Shown one piece after another: positions 41,953 to 49,918 of a stretch of DNA of 64,000 nucleotides. The notes below the pieces were generated by a model. It searched no databases and was not told the DNA's origin. It saw nothing but the letters and a program-made list of their open reading frames with translations. Position numbers and translations under genes: made by a program. Positions within the stretch are counted from its first letter, which is position 1. Each line of letters begins with the position of its first letter. Source of the stretch: Oxalicibacterium faecigallinarum (GTDB lineage Bacteria > Pseudomonadota > Gammaproteobacteria > Burkholderiales > Burkholderiaceae_D). The stretch spans positions 124,001 to 188,000 of the forward strand of contig NZ_BMDI01000002.1 in assembly GCF_014635705.1 (NCBI RefSeq), read 5' to 3'.

Positions 41953-43980
41953 TTAGAAGCGTGTACGCATACCGACAATCAGATTGCGGCCGGATTGGGG
42001 GGCGACCTCACTCAGCACGGATGTTGACAGACGAATATCTTCATCCAGCAGGTTTTTCACCATTGCAAACCAGGTGATCGGCATGCTGTTCGTGCGTTGC
42101 GTGTAGGACAGGCTGGCGTCAACCTTGGTGTAAGACGGCGTTGCAAAGTCCTCGAAGCTGGCCCGACGACGCTGCTTGTCTGCATGCAGGACGCTTACGC
42201 CGGATTGCCAGTTGCCCTGGCGATAGCTGACTTCGCCGCCGTAACGCGTGACGGGTTGCAAGGGCAGGTTTCCAAGTCCGTCCGTCAGCTTGCCGCGCGA
42301 GGTGTCGGCAAACGCGCGCAGGCCAATGCCTTCGCCAAAGCGGTTGTAGCTGACTTCGACTTCCGCGCCACGAATACGCGCATCGTTTTGCGACCAAGTG
42401 CGTTCTCTATATTCACCTCCGATTGGATCCGGATCGCCATGATCGTCGACCAGTCCGCCCATTTCGCCATAAACGTAATTCTTGACGCTGTTGTGAAAGA
42501 CGTTGGCTTTCCAGCGGAACAGTCCTTCGGTCTTTTGCAGACTGAGCTCGATATTACGCGAGGTTTCCTTGCGCAGATTGGCATCGCCGATATCAAACGT
42601 GGCGGTCGCTTCGTGCGCACCATCGGAATACAGTTCTTCTACCGAAGGTGCACGTTGCGCGATCGATCCGGTCAGGCCAAGACCATAGCCCGGTGTGAAG
42701 GTCCACAGGCCACCAACCGAGTACGAGCCCAGCGTAAAGTCGCGATTCGTGTTGCCGGACGCTGCATCCGGCTTGCGTTTGATCGATTCGACACGCGCTC
42801 CTGCACTGGCACGTACCGGGCCAAAATCCTTTTGCTCTACCAGAAAGGCAGCGATCGATTCTGTCTTGGTCAGCGGAACCGTGGCATGGCTGTGACCATG
42901 GCCGTGATCATCGGCAGGCAACGCAGAGAACTCCGAATTCTCGGTTTGCAGACCGAATGTGCCGTGCCAGCCGGCGAATGGTTTGTGGGTCAGTTCGAGT
43001 CTTGATTCCAGCGCGCGATTCTTGAAGGTCACGGCGGTATCGCCATCTTCGTGATGCTCGGCGTGCTCGTAATCGGTATTGCCGATTTTGAAGCGCAAGG
43101 ATTCGAAATTGGCAAACGGCTCCTTGATCAGGCCATCGATGTCGAAACGTGTCTGCTTGAGTTTGATGTAGGAACGTTCTTCGGTAGGAATGCCATAGCG
43201 ATCGTCATTGACACCGACCGATGCACCGATGTGTCCCCAATTCTGGATGTAGCTGCCGCCAAAGCCAAGGCTGCCGGCACGTGTAAACGAGTTCGGCAAG
43301 GTGCCGGATCCGCTGGAAGCATCGCCCAAGACGACATTGCCCGGAATCCTGTAATCGTCGGCATCGCGGAAGTTGCCATCCAGATGCAGGCCGATGTTGC
43401 CGGTGGAGCCATCGACCGAGGTCGATACCTGTTTGCCATGATCGACGCTGCTGTAACGCACTTCGGCTTCGCCGGTCGGTTTGCCAACCAGCGTGGTCGG
43501 AATGCGGTCGTTGACAATGTTGACCACACCGCCGATCGCGCCCGAACCATACAGCAAGGCAGCCGGGCCGCGCAGGATCTCGATCTGGCGAGCCGTGGCT
43601 CCTTCACCGGCAACCGCATGATCGTTGGAGAACGTGGAGGCATCCAGTACCGACATGCCGTTTTGCAGAATCTTGACGCGTGGGCCTTCCATGCCGCGAA
43701 TGATCGGGCGGGATGCACCCGGGCCGAATGACGAGGCAGAAACACCGAGTTCTTGCGATAGCGTGTCGCCGAGGGTATTGCCGAGTTTGTTGCGCAGCTC
43801 ATCGCCGCGCAGGACGGTGGCTGGTGCCAGAATCTGGTTTTCGACACCATCATTGAAAGGTGTGGCGGTAACCGTTACGGCAGGCAGGGTCTGGCTTGTT
43901 TGCTGTGAAAGAACAGGGGCAGACATGGTGGCAAGCGCGGACAATACGGCGCTCGCCAGCAGGGTACGTTGGGCAATCAT
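41953..43980 (-). CDS. TonB-dependent receptor, probably for zinc (ZnuD-like)
   Basis: Outer-membrane receptor of 675 residues: signal peptide to LSQQ, TonB box-like TLPAVTVTATP, plug domain (TVLRGDELRNKLGNTLGDTLSQ to IGGVVNIVNDRIP), and a 22-strand barrel ending in GRNLIVGMRTRF. Histidine-rich extracellular-type loops (DDHGHGHSHATV, EHAEHHEDGD) resemble those of neisserial ZnuD, a zinc receptor, and fit the zinc-linked genes upstream. GAGGATTCTCC before ATG 43980 fixes the start. It is the last gene of a run of six on the minus strand. Confidence 0.92.
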   Translation of the reverse strand: MIAQRTLLASAVLSALATMSAPVLSQQTSQTLPAVTVTATPFNDGVENQILAPATVLRGDELRNKLGNTLGDTLSQELGVSASSFGPGASRPIIRGMEGPRVKILQNGMSVLDASTFSNDHAVAGEGATARQIEILRGPAALLYGSGAIGGVVNIVNDRIPTTLVGKPTGEAEVRYSSVDHGKQVSTSVDGSTGNIGLHLDGNFRDADDYRIPGNVVLGDASSGSGTLPNSFTRAGSLGFGGSYIQNWGHIGASVGVNDDRYGIPTEERSYIKLKQTRFDIDGLIKEPFANFESLRFKIGNTDYEHAEHHEDGDTAVTFKNRALESRLELTHKPFAGWHGTFGLQTENSEFSALPADDHGHGHSHATVPLTKTESIAAFLVEQKDFGPVRASAGARVESIKRKPDAASGNTNRDFTLGSYSVGGLWTFTPGYGLGLTGSIAQRAPSVEELYSDGAHEATATFDIGDANLRKETSRNIELSLQKTEGLFRWKANVFHNSVKNYVYGEMGGLVDDHGDPDPIGGEYRERTWSQNDARIRGAEVEVSYNRFGEGIGLRAFADTSRGKLTDGLGNLPLQPVTRYGGEVSYRQGNWQSGVSVLHADKQRRRASFEDFATPSYTKVDASLSYTQRTNSMPITWFAMVKNLLDEDIRLSTSVLSEVAPQSGRNLIVGMRTRF

Positions 43981-44061
43981 GGAGAATCCTCGAATAACAA
44001 TGACAAAGTGCGGCAGCGACCGCTCGATCAAACGAGGCGGTGTGCGCAATACGGCGGTAAG

Positions 44062-44418
44062 TCAGTTGCGTCGAGCGGGTGGGGCGCGAGAAGAAAAATG
44101 GCAGAGCAGGGGGGCATCCCATGAGGCGAACGCGTGCCACAAGGCGAGAACGCGTGCGCCGGGAAGCAGCGGCAGGCTGACCGGCAAGAGGGGTGTTGCA
44201 TCCGCCAGAGAAATGCCATCGAACAGGATGCACGAGTGGGTTGCTTCCGGTTGATGATTGTCTTCAGCCTCGATTGTTTGCAGAACGTGTGGTGAAATCA
44301 GTCCCGCATGTTCGATGCGATGGTGCAGCCCAGCCCATTGGGCACAAAGCAGTGCCAACACCAGCAATGCGATCAGGCATGCCGGTGTGTGTGCAATGGA
44401 TGGGCGAGCGTGAAACAT
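44062..44418 (-). CDS. Uncharacterised membrane-anchored protein of the zinc cluster
   Basis: A 118-residue protein with one N-terminal hydrophobic helix (LIALLVLALLCAQWAG) and an exported, His-bearing body: GLHHRIEHAG right after the helix and THSCILFDGISLADA further on, with one Cys next to His in each half. The metal-ligand-like residues and the position between the DUF3299 and receptor genes suggest a role in zinc handling in the periplasm. I do not recognise a family with confidence (DUF2946 is a loose possibility). ATG 44418 chosen over TTG 44424. Confidence 0.65.
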   Translation of the reverse strand: MFHARPSIAHTPACLIALLVLALLCAQWAGLHHRIEHAGLISPHVLQTIEAEDNHQPEATHSCILFDGISLADATPLLPVSLPLLPGARVLALWHAFASWDAPLLCHFSSRAPPARRN

Positions 44419-44441
44419 GGGCAAATGTAGAGGTAAGTCAG

Positions 44442-44942
44442 TTATTTGCTGATTGCCGCATTGTTCATGCGGTAATACAGACCCATGGGATCATCCTGCA
44501 GGATTTCCATGGTGCCCGAAATAACGACCGGTTCAAACGTGTATTTGACGGGCGTCTTGGCGTTCACCTCCACCACGCCTTCCGGACCTGCTGGCAAACA
44601 GTAGCTGCAGGATTGCGGATAAATGGACAGCAGAAAGTGCTTTTGTTTTTCGCCTGGTTCAAGCGGCATCATGAATCCCTGCACCTTGATTTCCCGTTTG
44701 TCGAGGGCAACCACCTCTTTGGCAAAGGCGGGAAGAATCTGATTCTTCACCTTCTTTTGCTTCACCATGGCGAGCGTGTTCCACGACGTGACACCCGGTA
44801 TTTCCTTGAGGACCGGCATCTGGGGCGGCGGCGTCGTGGTATTCGCATGTTGTTCCGCAGAAGATTGTGCGAGGGCGACATGGGTTGCACTGTACGACAA
44901 CAGCGCGCACACGATCAGGCTAAAGCGGCGAGGCAGGGACAT
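44442..44942 (-). CDS. DUF3299-family exported protein
   Basis: An exported 166-residue protein (signal peptide MSLPRRFSLIVCALLSYSATHVALAQ). The DUF3299 features are visible: a short helix SWNTLAMVKQKKVK, then KREIKVQGFMMPLEPGEKQKHFLLS and PQSCSYCLPAGPEGVVEV with a CxxC pair. DUF3299 proteins accompany FtsX-type ABC transporters in Zur-regulated loci such as V. cholerae zrgABCDE and P. aeruginosa PA4063-4066, exactly the partners seen here. Molecular role not established; the CSYC pair may bind metal. Confidence 0.87.
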   Translation of the reverse strand: MSLPRRFSLIVCALLSYSATHVALAQSSAEQHANTTTPPPQMPVLKEIPGVTSWNTLAMVKQKKVKNQILPAFAKEVVALDKREIKVQGFMMPLEPGEKQKHFLLSIYPQSCSYCLPAGPEGVVEVNAKTPVKYTFEPVVISGTMEILQDDPMGLYYRMNNAAISK

Positions 44943-44959
44943 GACAAACTCCAGCGTGA

Positions 44960-44978
44960 TAATCAGGGTTGCATTCTA
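44960..44978 (-). promoter_or_regulatory. Degenerate Zur-box-like site before the DUF3299 gene
   Basis: On the minus strand TAGAATGCAACC occurs about 30 bases before the DUF3299 start, identical over 12 bases to the sequence preceding the ABC ATPase gene. The left half TGCAA is intact, the right half is degenerate (ATTAT for TTGCA). It may be a second, internal promoter of the operon. Confidence 0.35.
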
Positions 44979-45013
44979 GTGAATGAATGGACGGAATCGA
45001 TGAACGTCAGGCA

Positions 45014-45253
45014 TTAGTGCGCATGGCGCATGCCGCAGCGCTTGCCGAGCGCCAGACCTTTGCATGCTGCAGTCAGTTCTGCATGACATGTTTTTTCATC
45101 CTTGCCGCTACGCAGGCATTGCGCTGCAGCGGCATGGGCTTCTGCCATGGCTTGATGTTGTGCAATGGTTTCCCTGGCGTGATCCGACTTGGGTTCATGT
45201 GCGGCAACAGGCAGGGCGCAGGCAACGAGCAGGGCGAACAGTAATTTTTTCAT
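45014..45253 (-). CDS. Small periplasmic Cys/His protein of the zinc cluster
   Basis: A 79-residue exported protein with signal peptide MKKLLFALLVACALPVAAHE, leaving a mature chain of about 60 residues with seven histidines and four cysteines in the pattern C-x9-C-x7-C-x8-C, ending in GMRHAH. Two disulfides or a metal site are possible. In similar loci of other bacteria this position is taken by a much larger His-rich protein (ZrgA, DUF2796); the small size here is unusual. It begins 19 bases after the permease stop. I know no family for it. Confidence 0.72.
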   Translation of the reverse strand: MKKLLFALLVACALPVAAHEPKSDHARETIAQHQAMAEAHAAAAQCLRSGKDEKTCHAELTAACKGLALGKRCGMRHAH

Positions 45254-45272
45254 GATGCGTTCAATCTGTTGA

Positions 45273-46487
45273 TCAATGTGCGAGTGTGGTCGCGATATCG
45301 GTGCGGTAGGCGCGCATCGCGGGAATCAGTGCGGCGGCGATACCAATCACGATAGCGAGTGGCAGTAACCAGATCTCGTCCGCCGCGATAAACCAGGCGG
45401 ACAGAACGATATTGTGTTCGCTCGCCATCATCTGCGCGAGCAGGCCGACGGTTGCATGACCAAGAAGCCAGCCCAGCGCGGCACCGAGCAATGCGAGCAA
45501 CAAGCCTTCTGTGAGCAGCAGGCGCAAGAGTTTCGCGGGTGAAGCGCCGAGTGTGCGCAGGATGGCAAGGTCCGTACGGCGCTCTTCCAATGCATGGTAG
45601 AGCGCAACGAACATGGCCAGCGTTGCCGCCAGCAGAACGATGGCGGCAATACCGCGCAGGACATCGATACCAACCCCCATCAGGCGGAACAGCTTGGCCG
45701 ATTCGAACGCAGGTTGTGCGGCCTGCAATTGTGGCTGACTGTTGATAAAGCGTGGCATGGTGACGGCGGCCAGTGGCGAACTGTACTGGACCAGCAGCGC
45801 CGTCAGTTCCCTGTGTTGTTCCATGACTTCTCGTTCTTCGGGATCATCGGGATTCAGACCATCGATTTTTTCGTGCACTTTCCAGACAGACTCTACCGGC
45901 GTAATGATCAGACGATCAAGTACGGTCCCGGTGGGTTGCAGAATGCCGACGACTTCAAATGCGGCTTCTTCATGCGCGTATCCACCATCGGCAAGACCGT
46001 GTGAGCCAAAAAAATGATTGCCGATGGCAGCTTTGGTCCGTTGGGCGACGAGTGCGCCCATGACAGCGTGCATGCTGTGCGTCGGCAGGTTGCCTTGCGC
46101 GAGTTGACCTTTGTAATGCCGGATGTAGTCGTCATTGGTGCCAACGATACGAAAGCCACGATAACTGTCACCCAGCGCCAGCGGAATCGCTGTCTTCACC
46201 ATGCGATTCTGTTTGAGTTGCGTTTCGGTTGCCAGTGGAATGTTGCCGGTGGGTGCATCGATCTGATAAATCGAGGACAGGATCAGTTGCAGCGGCGAGC
46301 CTTTCGCGCCCACCACCAGATCAATCCCCTCTGCATCGCGCAGTGCCCGATCAGTGAGCTGGGACGATGCGGACAGAATGAAGGTCATCATCGCAATACC
46401 GATGGCCATCAAGAACAGATTGAGTACCGTTGCGAGCGGGCGATGCCACAGTGATTTCAGTGCAAGGGAGAACGCATTCAATTGCAT
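45273..46487 (-). CDS. FtsX/MacB-type ABC permease (Zrg-like)
   Basis: Membrane permease of 404 residues with four helices in the FtsX arrangement: one near the N-terminus (VLNLFLMAIGIAMMTFILSAS), a large periplasmic domain (about residues 45-280), then three C-terminal helices (GIAAIVLLAATLAMFVALYHALEERRTDLAILRTLGASPAKLL is the conserved segment). It pairs with the ATPase gene, with which it shares a TGATG overlap. This permease type usually performs mechanical work or lipoprotein handling rather than ion uptake, so how it serves zinc acquisition is open. Confidence 0.9.
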   Translation of the reverse strand: MQLNAFSLALKSLWHRPLATVLNLFLMAIGIAMMTFILSASSQLTDRALRDAEGIDLVVGAKGSPLQLILSSIYQIDAPTGNIPLATETQLKQNRMVKTAIPLALGDSYRGFRIVGTNDDYIRHYKGQLAQGNLPTHSMHAVMGALVAQRTKAAIGNHFFGSHGLADGGYAHEEAAFEVVGILQPTGTVLDRLIITPVESVWKVHEKIDGLNPDDPEEREVMEQHRELTALLVQYSSPLAAVTMPRFINSQPQLQAAQPAFESAKLFRLMGVGIDVLRGIAAIVLLAATLAMFVALYHALEERRTDLAILRTLGASPAKLLRLLLTEGLLLALLGAALGWLLGHATVGLLAQMMASEHNIVLSAWFIAADEIWLLPLAIVIGIAAALIPAMRAYRTDIATTLAH

Positions 46488-47152
46488 CAGAGCCCCTGCG
46501 TCGAAAACGGTGCTGCCAGACGCAGGGTCTTGGCGTCCGGCATGGCGTGCAGCACACGTGCATCATGCGTGGAGATGATCAGGGAACTGCCATTTTCCTC
46601 GGCTTGAGTACGCAACAGGGTAATCGCGTCATGTGCGGCGATGTCGTCCAGGCTGGCTGTTGGCTCGTCGGCCAACAACAGCAATGGTCGCTGGAAAAGC
46701 GCACGGGCGAGGGCAACACGTTGTCGTTGGCCGTGGCTTAGCTGATGTGGCTTCGCGTGCACGCGGTCTTGCATGCCCAGTTTGCCGAGCAGGGCGTCTG
46801 CCCGTGCCGTGTCATGCTTGTGATTGCCGGCATAGGCTGCAACCAGAATGTTTTCACGTACCGTCAGGCTGGGAATGAGCGCCAGTTTTTGTGGCAGGAA
46901 GCCGATGGTCCGGCTGCGCCACTGATCTGCAGATGAGGCAGAGAGTTGGGTAAGGTCGGTGCCGCCAATCGAAAGGCGTCCGCCTTGTGGCGTCAGAATG
47001 CCGGCCAGCAGGTGCAGCAGCGTGGATTTGCCGCTGCCGGAGGGGCCGGCCAATACTGCGTGCTGCCCTTTTTCGAGGGCGAACTCAGGTACGGCCAGTT
47101 GTGGATGGGATGCGTCATCATAACGATGCACAAGGTTCTCGATTTGCAACAT
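46487..47152 (-). CDS. ABC transporter ATPase (LolD/MacB-type)
   Basis: ATPase subunit of 221 residues: Walker A GPSGSGKST, Q-loop IGFLPQKLA, signature LSHGQRQRVALARAL (an LSHGQ variant of LSGGQ), Walker B LLLADEPTASLD, and switch ISTHDARV. It belongs to the LolD/MacB-type group that partners FtsX-like permeases. It is the first gene of the six-gene zinc operon. The start codon lies inside a palindrome matching the one before zur, and a TAGAAT box stands directly upstream. Confidence 0.93.
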   Translation of the reverse strand: MLQIENLVHRYDDASHPQLAVPEFALEKGQHAVLAGPSGSGKSTLLHLLAGILTPQGGRLSIGGTDLTQLSASSADQWRSRTIGFLPQKLALIPSLTVRENILVAAYAGNHKHDTARADALLGKLGMQDRVHAKPHQLSHGQRQRVALARALFQRPLLLLADEPTASLDDIAAHDAITLLRTQAEENGSSLIISTHDARVLHAMPDAKTLRLAAPFSTQGL

Positions 47153-47159
47153 GGTTGCA
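47145..47159 (-). promoter_or_regulatory. Predicted Zur box at the start of the ABC/receptor operon
   Basis: TGCAA-CATGG-TTGCA is a perfect 5-bp inverted repeat with a 5-base centre, the same design as the site upstream of zur. It overlaps the ATPase start codon and adjoins a possible -10 box TAGAAT, a position expected to block transcription when Zur binds with zinc. Assignment to Zur rests on shared design and gene content. Confidence 0.55.
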
Positions 47160-47173
47160 TTCTACAAAAAAAC

Positions 47174-47203
47174 AAAGCGCACGGAAAGAGCCGTGCGCTT
47201 TTG
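47174..47203 (-). terminator. Rho-independent terminator after dksA
   Basis: AAAGCGCACGG, a six-base loop, CCGTGCGCTTT form an 11-bp stem; on the minus strand it is followed by GTTTTTTTG. It lies 34 bases after the dksA stop and just before the zinc operon promoter, so it insulates the two units. Confidence 0.85.
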
Positions 47204-47236
47204 TCTGATCCGACCAAGTCGAACGTGAGTACGAAC

Positions 47237-48172
47237 TCAGTCGCCGTACAACTTCTGCTTGAGTTCGCGGCGTTGTTGCGCTTCGAGTGACAGGGTTGCC
47301 GTTGGGCGAGCCAGCAGACGCGGCACACCAATCGGTTCGCCGGTTTCTTCACACCAGCCATAGTCACCGGCATCGATGGCGACAATTGACTGCTGCACCT
47401 TTTTCAACAGTTTGCGTTCGCGGTCGCGGGTACGCAATTCAAGCGCATGTTCTTCCTCAATGGTGGCGCGATCAGCCGGATCGGGAACCAGAACGGTTTC
47501 ACGCAGATGTTCGGTGGTTTCGTCGGCATTCTTGAGCAACTCTTTTTCGAGTTGCTGCAGACGATCCTTGAAGAAGGCGAGCTGCGCCTCGTTCATGTAA
47601 TCCTTTTCACCCATTTTCAGAATCTGTTCTTCTGTCAACAGGGCGCCAGGGGCGGTCGTTTGTGCTTTTGATGTTTTAGTTGCCACTTCGCTTGCCTTTG
47701 AAACTACGGATGGTTCAATTTTATCCACGATTGGAGCAGCGGGTTGCGCCGCTTTTTTTGCTCCGGATCGGGACGCGGTTTTTGTTGTTGCAGTGAGCGC
47801 TGGTTTGGACGCCGTGACTGCGGTTTTGGTTGCCGAACTTGTTGCCGTTTTAGCGGTTTTTTTAGCGGGCGTTTTCGCTGCGCCGGCGGCCTTGGTCGTC
47901 TTGGCTGCACTGGCGCGCGTTGCAACAGGTGCCTTGCTCTTCGCGGGGGATTTTACCGCACTCTTGGCGACCGCCTTTTTTGCCGCCGCAGCAACTGTCT
48001 TGCTGGCTGGTTTGATCGATTTGGACAATGCCTTGACAACGCTGCCGGCCAGTGACTTGGCAGTGCTTTTGACAGCAGATTTGGCTGTTGTCAGCTTCGT
48101 CTTGCTGGTCGCGATCGGTTTGGGAGCAGCTTTTTTTGTGCTTTTCGCAGCTTTTGTGACGGTTGCGTTCAT
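47237..48172 (-). CDS. dksA: RNA polymerase-binding protein DksA with a long Lys/Ala-rich N-terminal extension
   Basis: Transcription factor of 311 residues. The C-terminal 135 residues are DksA: coiled coil with tip motif DPADRAT, then DYGWCEETGEPIGVPRLLARPTATLSLEAQQRRELK. Only one of the four zinc-finger cysteines remains (C, T, S, A), the zinc-free type common in alpha- and betaproteobacteria. Residues 1-175 are almost only K, A, T, S, P and V, resembling histone H1 tails and AlgP/HctB repeats, which suggests DNA binding. ATG 48172 follows AGGGGACT. DksA works with ppGpp at promoters. Confidence 0.93.
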   Translation of the reverse strand: MNATVTKAAKSTKKAAPKPIATSKTKLTTAKSAVKSTAKSLAGSVVKALSKSIKPASKTVAAAAKKAVAKSAVKSPAKSKAPVATRASAAKTTKAAGAAKTPAKKTAKTATSSATKTAVTASKPALTATTKTASRSGAKKAAQPAAPIVDKIEPSVVSKASEVATKTSKAQTTAPGALLTEEQILKMGEKDYMNEAQLAFFKDRLQQLEKELLKNADETTEHLRETVLVPDPADRATIEEEHALELRTRDRERKLLKKVQQSIVAIDAGDYGWCEETGEPIGVPRLLARPTATLSLEAQQRRELKQKLYGD

Positions 48173-48260
48173 AGTCCCCTGTCCTTGATGAACCTTACCA
48201 CGCTCAAACGACGACAGCCTCGCGTCTTGCGGCCTGCCGCACGAAATCAACCACGCTAGT

Positions 48261-49313
48261 TTATACCAGACATTGTTTCAAACCGAGAATAAAAGTTTCC
48301 TTCGGGAGATTTTGTCCGATGAAAACCATTTTGCTGCCTTTTGGCTCGTTTTCACCCCATTTGGCGCCAATGTCGGTCCCCATGATCTGGTGTACACCCT
48401 GAAAAATGACTTTTCGGTCGGCGCCATCCATCCACAGTACGCCTTTGTAACGTAGCATGCGCGGCCCATAGACTTGCACGATGATGCCCAGATACTCGTC
48501 CAGTTTTTCAGCCTGAAACGGACGATCTGCCTGAAAGACAAAGGCTGTGATGCTATCGCTGTGGTGCCCCTGATGGTGATTGTGGTCATGGTGGTGATGC
48601 TCGTGACCACAATCTGCGCCGCATGCATGATCATCGTGGTCATGTGCATGGTCGTCTGCCAACAGGAAATCCTGATCGAGTTCGAGCTTGTCGTTCAGGT
48701 TGAAGCCGCGCAGATCAAGGACTTCTGCAATCGCAACCTTGCCGAAATCGCTGGTAACGATCGGTGCGCGCGGGTTGATGTGGCGTAACCGTGCCGTCAA
48801 TCTTTCGAGCGCGGCGCCATCGACCAGATCGGTTTTGGAAAGCAGCAGTTTGTCGGCGAACCCGACCTGACGCTGTGCCTCTTCGTAGGTATCCAGCTGA
48901 TGCATGGCGTGGCGTGCATCAACGACCGTGACAACCGCATCGACCAGATAGTCGGCGGCGACTTCTTCATCGATAAAGAAGGTTTGTGCAACCGGTCCCG
49001 GATTGGCAAGGCCGGTGGTTTCAATGACGACGTGATCGAACTGCAGCTCGCCAGCGGCGCGACGGCGTGCCAGATCGGTCAGTCCCATGATCAGATCGCC
49101 GCGCACGGTGCAGCAAATGCAGCCGTTGTTCATTTCGATGATCTGTTCGCGACTCTCCTGTACGAGTATTTCATTGTCGATGTTTTCTTCGCCAAACTCG
49201 TTTTCAATCACCGCAATCTTGAAACCATGTGGTTCGTGCAGGATGCGATTGAGCAGCGTGGTTTTGCCGGCGCCAAGAAAGCCGGTAAGAATGGTAGCGG
49301 GAATCAGGGCCAT
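48261..49313 (-). CDS. CobW/ZNG1-family GTPase with His-rich segment
   Basis: GTP-dependent metallochaperone-type protein of 350 residues: Walker A TGFLGAGKTTLLN, the zinc-binding GCICCTVR motif, Walker B-like ETTGLANPG, base-recognition KTD, and C-terminal CobW_C domain (IIVQVYGPRMLRYKGVLW). A metal-binding segment between them (DDHAHDHDDHACGADCGHEHH, then more HH pairs to about residue 265) is very rich in His. Related Zur-controlled proteins (ZigA, YeiR, eukaryotic ZNG1) deliver zinc to client enzymes when zinc is scarce. Located between zur and dksA. Confidence 0.93.
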   Translation of the reverse strand: MALIPATILTGFLGAGKTTLLNRILHEPHGFKIAVIENEFGEENIDNEILVQESREQIIEMNNGCICCTVRGDLIMGLTDLARRRAAGELQFDHVVIETTGLANPGPVAQTFFIDEEVAADYLVDAVVTVVDARHAMHQLDTYEEAQRQVGFADKLLLSKTDLVDGAALERLTARLRHINPRAPIVTSDFGKVAIAEVLDLRGFNLNDKLELDQDFLLADDHAHDHDDHACGADCGHEHHHHDHNHHQGHHSDSITAFVFQADRPFQAEKLDEYLGIIVQVYGPRMLRYKGVLWMDGADRKVIFQGVHQIMGTDIGAKWGENEPKGSKMVFIGQNLPKETFILGLKQCLV

Positions 49314-49332
49314 GTATCGCTTTCAATGACAG

Positions 49333-49863
49333 TTACTTGGCTTGCAGAGCGCATTCCGCGCACCAGCCTTTGATGGTAAGTTCCACTTCGTGACTCTGGA
49401 AACCTTTGCCCAATGTACTTTGCAGGATTTTTTGCAATTGCTGGCGCAAGGTCAGGCTGGAATTGCCCTGTTTGCTATCCATATCAGTGTTGAATAGTTT
49501 TTCATCCACATTGTCGATGCAGAAAACCTTTGCACAGCGTGTGCATTTGAAATGTCCATGTTGGTGATGATGGGCATGACCGTGACCGGCTTCCGTTTCT
49601 TCCACGCCCGCGTTGTAGCGGAAGACGCGATCGTCGCCGGAAATCTTATGTGCCAGCCCCGCATCGGTTAAGCCATCCAGGGCGCGATACAGGGTGACGC
49701 GATCCATATCGACCAGTTTGTCCTGCACATCCTGATGCGACAGTGCGTGGCGTGCGCCGAGCAGGGTGGCTAGTACCCTGATGCGTGCATCGGTCGTGCG
49801 TAGCGATGAGCTACGGAGTTGTTCTTCAGCAAGCGACTGAAAATCGGGAGCATTCTTTTTCAT
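49333..49863 (-). CDS. zur: Zinc uptake regulator Zur (Fur family)
   Basis: Fur-family repressor of 176 residues. Winged helix RIRVLATLLGARHALSHQDVQDKL with DRVTLYRALDGLTDAGLAHKI; regulatory site region GHGHAHHHQHGHFKCTRCAKVFCID; C-terminal GWCAEC completes the structural zinc site (CTRC plus CAEC). The many histidines and the neighbouring cobW gene indicate zinc rather than iron. The start at 49863 is preferred: upstream in-frame codons fall in the promoter, where a palindrome suggests autoregulation. cobW follows after 19 bases. Confidence 0.88.
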   Translation of the reverse strand: MKKNAPDFQSLAEEQLRSSSLRTTDARIRVLATLLGARHALSHQDVQDKLVDMDRVTLYRALDGLTDAGLAHKISGDDRVFRYNAGVEETEAGHGHAHHHQHGHFKCTRCAKVFCIDNVDEKLFNTDMDSKQGNSSLTLRQQLQKILQSTLGKGFQSHEVELTIKGWCAECALQAK

Positions 49864-49903: not shown

Positions 49904-49918
49904 TGCAATTGAGTTGCA
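49904..49918 (-). promoter_or_regulatory. Predicted Zur box upstream of zur-cobW
   Basis: TGCAA-TTGAG-TTGCA, extended to ATGCAA/TTGCAT on both sides, lies 41 bases before the zur start and about 7 bases upstream of a possible -10 box CATAAT, so it would cover the -35 region. The same palindrome design occurs at 47145. Confidence 0.6.

Follow-up and report, generated by a model that had tools for sequence, protein, structure and literature searches.

The 64-kb stretch of the Oxalicibacterium faecigallinarum genome (3.33 Mb) that was analyzed here, referred to as the window, carries at positions 41953-49863 nine open reading frames (ORFs), all on the minus strand, that may together form a Zur-repressed zinc-starvation locus. 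In the model that we tentatively favor, and to which we give on sequence grounds a chance just short of even, the ATP-binding cassette (ABC) module of this locus would spend ATP on the handling of zinc beyond the inner membrane, with a distinct importer of the ZIP type alongside it. It is the combination of the fold of the permease, its conserved histidines, the His- and Cys-containing partner proteins and a related clade adjoining alkaline phosphatase that favors an ATP-driven zinc transfer on that side of the membrane. The nine genes had been listed in an initial annotation, and ORFs and Pfam matches confirmed them as real and correctly placed.

The AF2 model of the permease (pLDDT 86.9, pTM 0.80) was matched by Foldseek to LolC/E, MacB, HrtB, YbbP, BceB and FtsX. 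To our knowledge, no ion import is known for the LolC/E-MacB-HrtB-FtsX class; as a rule, machines of this kind act on proteins beyond the inner membrane. Judged from the alignments, about 130 permeases, from several phyla, share the histidines H163, H172 and H205. With gaps set aside, H163 was found in 126/126, H172 in 125/125 and H205 in 125/125 rows of an alignment of 126 permeases, whose rows are not all independent (L070 and L166, and likewise L125 and L165, are the same genome taken twice), and the triad is complete in five further permeases, those of Deinococcus, Thermus, Phaeobacter, Aeromonas and the ZrgA operon of P. aeruginosa. Position 172 of locus L246 is a gap in one alignment and V in another. 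None of 13 other FtsX-family control permeases, which carry no family assignment, has any of the three histidines; D56 and D107 are each present in one of the 13. The controls stem from 20 regions that were gathered mostly as putative controls: the 13 without the triad stayed controls, and the seven with it were regrouped afterwards, four into a third clade and three into the ZrgA-linked group. Since this regrouping was done after the triad had been seen, the tree and not the choice of regions serves as the test, and both groups have high support in both trees calculated. The motifs used for collecting loci from named hosts lie around residues 60-67 and 254-263, away from the triad histidines. 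From their conservation in the periplasmic domain of the permease, we infer that H163, H172 and H205 make up a putative metal site. A family-wide histidine triad appears not to have been described before in the literature searched, which had most subscription journals outside its scope and which yielded no case of zinc combined with mechanotransmission; the word "histidine" is absent from the main text of the paper on the P. aeruginosa permease (PMC11481552).

Permeases of the window type are found well beyond the genus. Judged from the match list, 24 of 199 other genomes sampled from the order have one, and 20 of these loci, all from other families, were searched by tblastn with the window proteins within about 10 kb (G131, G104, G181 and G069 were left out). 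The DUF3299 protein and the ATPase were present in 20/20 of these same-order loci, a CobW-like gene in 12/20, hslV or STAS in 12/20, a Zur-like gene, which may include Fur, in 11/20, a DksA-like gene in 6/20 and a related TonB receptor in 5/20. A further set comprised the best 80 of 527 loci from named hosts, among them Oxalobacteraceae, Comamonadaceae, Pedobacter, Algoriphagus and Roseivirga; here, the ATPase was found in 77, DUF3299 in 71, Zur-like genes in 25, CobW-like genes in 21, the receptor in 19 and p79 in 15 loci, and several Pedobacter loci carry CobW-like and Zur-like genes too. According to the initial annotation, related gene sets do not occur joined in this way; joined relatives are in fact common, and the uniqueness of the block fails on the co-occurrence across the order. 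All nine genes together were seen in no locus outside the genus among these 20 and the best 80 of 527. One Pedobacter locus (L205, 10216-12007) has three tandem DUF3299-like genes after the permease, followed by a Fur-family-like gene.

Control of both transcription units by Zur is well supported by sequence. Exact TGCAAYNNNRTTGCA palindromes occur in the window only at 47145 and 49904, the two positions given in the initial annotation, and the Zur control and the link to zinc that it proposed are supported by the operators with their conservation across the genus, the ZnuD-like receptor, CobW and the ZIP with the same operator. With ≤2 mismatches, 17 matches were found in the window versus 17.7 expected, and therefore only the exact form is informative. 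In the whole genome, three exact places stand against two for the reversed control. As this is no enrichment, the genome-wide count was discarded as proof, and the evidence for the operators is their location and conservation. The third genomic site lies in the 5′ region of the gene for a His-rich ZIP zinc transporter. In 14 genomes (the host, 12 genus mates and G213), 60 exact sites were found versus 8 for the reversed control; an exact operator precedes zur in 14/14, follows dksA in 13/14 (G203 has one mismatch) and precedes the ZIP gene in all 13 genomes that have one. Operators also stand before the module copies at other places in G205 and G213, in pairs before a second CobW gene in the genus mates G206, G207 and G211, before the ZrgA operon and, separately, a TonB receptor in G202, and beside a weakly DUF2946-like gene of G213 on a contig that also holds ZnuA. 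Locus L127 (G210:C1) has two adjacent operators, flanked on one side by a DUF2946 gene with a TonB receptor gene and on the other by a TonB receptor gene in divergent orientation.

The operator extends to loci outside the genus. Of the 20 same-order loci, 7 carry an exact site, with 11 sites in total (59 controls with permuted arms gave a mean of 0.10 and a maximum of 1), the 10 ZrgA-type loci have 4 (mean 0.03, maximum 1), and the 80 named loci have 34 in 25 loci (mean 0.37, maximum 3), 3 of the 34 stemming from two genus genomes; the reversed control gave 0 sites in all three sets. In Bacteroidota loci, the operator precedes the ATPase gene in six and the CobW gene in ten. The motif equals ATGCAACNNNGTTGCAT, which has been predicted as the Zur motif before znuABC in Desulfovibrio (PMC545781; here and below, statements on published work refer to the portions of the cited papers that were available). 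An operator common to Betaproteobacteria and Bacteroidota loci offers a ready motif for the prediction of Zur regulons there.

The block is two units, not one: a terminator-like hairpin follows dksA, and the second operator opens a new unit. Unit 1 would comprise zur-cobW, with transcription perhaps continuing into dksA, and unit 2 ATPase-permease-p79-DUF3299-p120-receptor. The hairpin at 47174-47201 has the most pairs among 19 such hairpins of the region (shuffles: 10.7 on average), and genus mates have similar sequence downstream of dksA. A sigma-70 scan gave no promoter at either operator. Within 47145-47170, six bases separate the end of a TAGAAT hexamer from the ATG of the ATPase gene, which leaves no room for a ribosome-binding site, and therefore a leaderless message is possible.

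The members of the genus share a conserved backbone of dapF-DUF484-xerC-zur-cobW-dksA-(p120)-receptor-STAS-hslV. The module ATPase-permease-p79-DUF3299 lies at this locus in the host, G200, G201, G204, G210 and G211 (in the last, the locus spans a contig break within dksA) and sits elsewhere in G205, where it has its smallest form, operator-ATPase-permease-p79-DUF3299. Since zur-cobW-dksA-receptor stays in place in the genus genomes without the module, we regard the four module genes (ATPase, permease, p79 and DUF3299) as a separable cassette, and the notion of a cluster "built around" the ABC transporter had to be given up. G202 and G207 have a ZrgA-type operon instead of the window-type module. 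In G207, p79 alone is kept where the ABC genes are missing (L063, 10317-10559), the ZrgA-type operon being elsewhere in the genome. G213 has an intact copy of the module on a contig other than that of dksA, and the sequence after the operator that follows its dksA (L077) resembles the decayed start of an ATPase gene.

Lacking ZrgA, the window system is a relative of ZrgABCDE of Vibrio and PA4063-PA4066 of P. aeruginosa, not a member of that group. All have an ATPase, an FtsX/MacB-type permease and a DUF3299 protein under Zur, and the P. aeruginosa operon, next to oprG, shares the histidine triad. In contrast, the window has p79 and a CxxC-type DUF3299 protein, and its permease is only 27-36% identical. 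The initial annotation had noted the lack of the large DUF2796 protein; this was borne out in part, in that the corresponding family, ZrgA (PF10986), is absent from the host genome. Of 47 genomes searched, 11 have ZrgA: 8/9 ZrgA-type genomes, in which it adjoins the more distant permease (G065 is the only one of the nine without it), G202 and G207, and 1/24 non-genus window-type genomes, there on another contig. The window permease falls outside the ZrgA-linked clade in both trees (support 100/99 in the larger, 100/100 in the smaller). In the smaller tree, which includes named outsiders, the permeases of Phaeobacter and P. aeruginosa join the ZrgA-linked ones in one clade (100/100), and Deinococcus and Thermus join the third group in another (99/93). 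The larger tree unites the window type in one clade (100/99, 34 rows); the smaller does not and requires two changes for it, so that this type may be ancestral to the others. The triad-less control L247, on a very long branch, stands on the triad side in the larger tree. Locus L273 (CP109682.1), labeled as a P. aeruginosa plasmid, has the order ZrgA-ATPase-permease-DUF3299-oprG, which we take to be that of the P. aeruginosa chromosome; it may be a mislabeled chromosomal contig.

The partners of the permease are rich in potential metal ligands. In p79, H33, H40, C46, C56, C64, C73, G74, M75 and H79 are present in 23/23 aligned homologues. Neither p79 nor p120 has a Pfam family at E 0.01; two weaker matches of p79 (0.017 and 0.28) were not accepted as real. 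DUF2946 matches 5 of 10 p120 members (best E 0.034), the member of the window being unmatched, and identity with DUF2607 (ZrgD) was rejected, as this family is not among the matches of the 10 members at E up to 5. The DUF3299 protein passes the Pfam cut-off (37.1 versus 22 bits), and its model matches the structure of PA4066 (Foldseek E 2.5e-5), entry 4hsp (PMC8561739). In 99 DUF3299 rows, the motif is CxxC in 92, CxxH in 4, CxH in 2 (ZrgA-linked loci) and a stray fragment in 1, and the swap between CxxC and CxxH suits a metal ligand. The third clade has the order alkaline phosphatase, CPFC DUF3299-like protein, ATPase, triad permease, seen in 4 of 6 loci: two of the same order (L254, L255), D. 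radiodurans plasmid MP1 (L269) and a Thermus plasmid (L270). Of the other two, L245 lies near a contig end and L246 shows only the DUF3299-like gene and the permease. The DUF3299-like proteins of this clade gave no match to the Pfam DUF3299 model, and the operator is not present in L269 and L270.

With a ZIP or a ZnuA-type system in all 14 genomes, the module looks like an addition. ZIP was found in 13/14, the only genome without it being G203, which is the sole genus member with ZnuA; ZnuA (PF01297) is absent from the host genome. A ZIP gene directly follows the module in G213, and ZIP or ZnuAB, never both, lies in the module locus in 6/20 same-order, 6/10 ZrgA-type and 10/80 named loci. The ZIP with a Zur box elsewhere in the host genome is the obvious candidate for the inner-membrane importer.

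In our model, the ZnuD-like receptor would carry zinc across the outer membrane. The ATPase and the FtsX-type permease would provide no classical import channel; rather, ATP would reshape the periplasmic domain of the permease, in which H163, H172 and H205, perhaps with D56 and D107, would make the metal site. The change in shape would move zinc onto or off the His/Cys proteins p79 and DUF3299, zinc would then reach the cytoplasm via the separate importer, here the ZIP, and CobW would allot it there. Related permeases may serve the same purpose with different partners: ZrgA for the zrg/PA4063-66 clade and alkaline phosphatase for the third. One may go further and see in the triad-bearing FtsX/MacB-like permeases of all phyla one ABC class that uses ATP to put zinc onto, or take it off, proteins beyond the inner membrane, its clients being p79 and the receptor, ZrgA, or the alkaline phosphatase (in Deinococcus, Thermus and some Betaproteobacteria). 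We consider this generalization possible but rather unlikely; if true, the class would apply mechanotransmission to a metal ion, and it would become clear why both "importer" and "exporter" have had their advocates.

Several observations weigh against our model or stand beside it. The zrg operon of V. cholerae has been described as an importer (PMC9820375), and loss of the P. aeruginosa permease altered cobalt and pyochelin, not zinc content (PMC11481552). Six of the 13 genus genomes (G202, G203, G206, G207, G208 and G209) have no window-type ABC module, and G206, G208 and G209 have neither this nor the ZrgA-type one. The triad is taken as a single metal site by conservation, not by spatial proximity, and the ZIP gap of G203, a genome 90% complete, may be an assembly gap. 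Seven of the 60 operator sites in the 14 genomes have no recognized zinc gene (G213:C79, G207:C2, two in G206:C2, G202:C35, G203:C314 and G211:C80); the two neighboring ORFs that were scanned encode a polyprenyl synthetase and a sugar epimerase. None of the 11 same-order sites precedes the ATPase gene, their positions being before CobW, Zur, the receptor or no scanned gene, 55 of the 80 named loci hold no exact operator, and five named loci from plasmid records are without it.

The function of Zrg/PA4063-66 is disputed between zinc import (Vibrio) and pyochelin-cobalt export (Pseudomonas), and the data from both do not settle the mechanism. Loss of the P. aeruginosa permease raised a zinc-starvation promoter and the demand for zinc (PMC11481552), and later Pseudomonas papers retain the export view (PMC12838275, PMC13083405). 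A ZrgA-free relative with three conserved histidines and an alkaline phosphatase sister clade provides a handle on import versus export versus zinc transfer outside the inner membrane. For direct import, the permease would take zinc from p79 or DUF3299, which would replace ZrgA, and move it across the inner membrane. ZrgA has been proposed as the binding protein of ZrgBC, and in V. cholerae lacking znuA the zrg genes are of importance when zinc is scarce (PMC9820375), the system is strongly induced in zinc-poor V. parahaemolyticus (PMC9817125), and the histidine triad would suit this role. We nevertheless consider it unlikely, given the structural matches of the permease, the presence of ZIP or Znu in all 14 genomes searched for both, adjoining the module in some loci, and the unchanged zinc content of the P. 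aeruginosa permease mutant (PMC11481552).

Export of a metallophore-metal complex by a MacB-like machine, which has been proposed for PA4063-66 with pyochelin-cobalt as the complex, would agree with the P. aeruginosa experiments (PMC11481552) and with the MacB/LolC fold. Condensation domains of nonribosomal peptide synthetases (NRPS), however, exceeded the cut-off in only 5 of the 32 carrier genomes; the host, its six carrier genus mates and G213 have none above it, and IucA/IucC was found in 1 of 32, not the host (opine-type and imported metallophores were outside this search). MacA or TolC is not among the nine genes, and the triad histidines are absent from the 13 controls. Such export is thus very unlikely, and a pyochelin-like form of it is disfavored here, as NRPS condensation domains and IucA/IucC are missing from the host and most carriers searched. 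The fold class, and the enzyme that adjoins the third clade, would also be compatible with an activator that pushes like FtsEX on a periplasmic enzyme during zinc starvation, zinc being only the sensed signal; with no hydrolase among the nine genes, and with small His/Cys proteins as partners, this is improbable. That unrelated genes merely lie beside a housekeeping xerC/dksA/hslV region, a backbone conserved in the genus, is hardly credible in view of the operators on both units and the co-occurrence across phyla.

Two further groups of known systems bear comparison. MacB, LolCDE and HrtBA, which we take to be the class named type VII ABC, have the fold and ATPase type in common with the window, which differs by the histidine triad and, among the nine genes, by the lack of MacA/TolC and of a lipoprotein partner. 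The MacB tripartite arrangement is not seen: ATPase and permease are separate genes and no adaptor is among the nine, the range over which MacA/TolC was looked for. The LolC/E cut-off was not reached either (TIGR02212, 44.8 of 362 bits). The Zur regulon of Cupriavidus metallidurans (zur, cobW2, cobW3, zupT and a cobW1 operon with a double box; PMC11340326, PMC6103462, PMC10882993) also includes a COG0523 GTPase with an internal His-rich part, in CobW2 (PMC11340326), and a ZIP with a Zur box, and its cobW1 double box resembles the paired operators before the second CobW gene in three genus mates. The available portions of these accounts mention no FtsX-type module, unlike the window.

Table 1. 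Genes and regulatory features of the locus, in window coordinates
Feature	Position	Strand	Evidence or remark
Operator 1 (Zur box) TGCAACTCAATTGCA	49904..49918	.	upstream of zur; exact palindrome
zur, Fur-family repressor	49333..49863	-	Pfam PF01475 (FUR) 4e-6
cobW, COG0523 GTPase	48261..49313	-	Pfam cobW 5e-59, CobW_C 2e-21
dksA	47237..48172	-	Pfam DksA_N 4e-25
Terminator-like hairpin after dksA	47174..47201	-	stem of 11 pairs, followed by a T run
Operator 2 (Zur box) TGCAACCATGTTGCA	47145..47159	.	overlaps ATPase start codon, beside TAGAAT hexamer; exact palindrome
ABC ATPase, LolD/FtsE/DevA-like	46487..47152	-	Pfam ABC_tran 7e-36
FtsX/MacB-type permease with H163, H172, H205	45273..46487	-	Pfam FtsX 6e-16, plus MacB_PCD
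p79, small protein (79 aa), signal-peptide-like start	45014..45253	-	alignment of homologues
DUF3299 protein, signal-peptide-like start, C112-x2-C115	44442..44942	-	Pfam PF11736 4e-9
p120, small protein (120 aa) with HRIEH, HSC...D, CHFSS	44062..44424	-	alignment; weakly DUF2946-like
TonB-dependent receptor, ZnuD-like, His-rich loop	41953..43980	-	Pfam Plug 5e-18, barrel 2e-31

ZnuD is the only Protein Data Bank (PDB) match of the receptor at 1e-10 (4rdr, 2e-65) and its best NCBIfam model (NF038289), yet at 401 of 950 bits the score is under the cut-off. The zur product has the Cys pairs FKCTRC and GWCAEC plus a His-rich stretch; it reaches only 19 of 167 bits with the NCBIfam Zur model and is one of two Fur-family matches in the host genome, the other scoring 1.9e-46. 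CobW has a GCICC motif and a His-rich stretch inside the protein, and its best matches in the 12 genus mates are 80-91% identical. The zinc finger of DksA, read from sequence (CEET...TLSLEA), has one of the four zinc-binding cysteines of the C4 type left; the Pfam model zf-dskA_traR nevertheless matches (1e-11). A role of this DksA as a spare for zinc starvation was dropped, as dksA is the sole PF01258 match of the host genome. Its N-terminal extension (gene at 47237-48172) of roughly 190 residues is Lys/Ala-rich and histone-H1-like, and genus mates match the whole gene at similar length.

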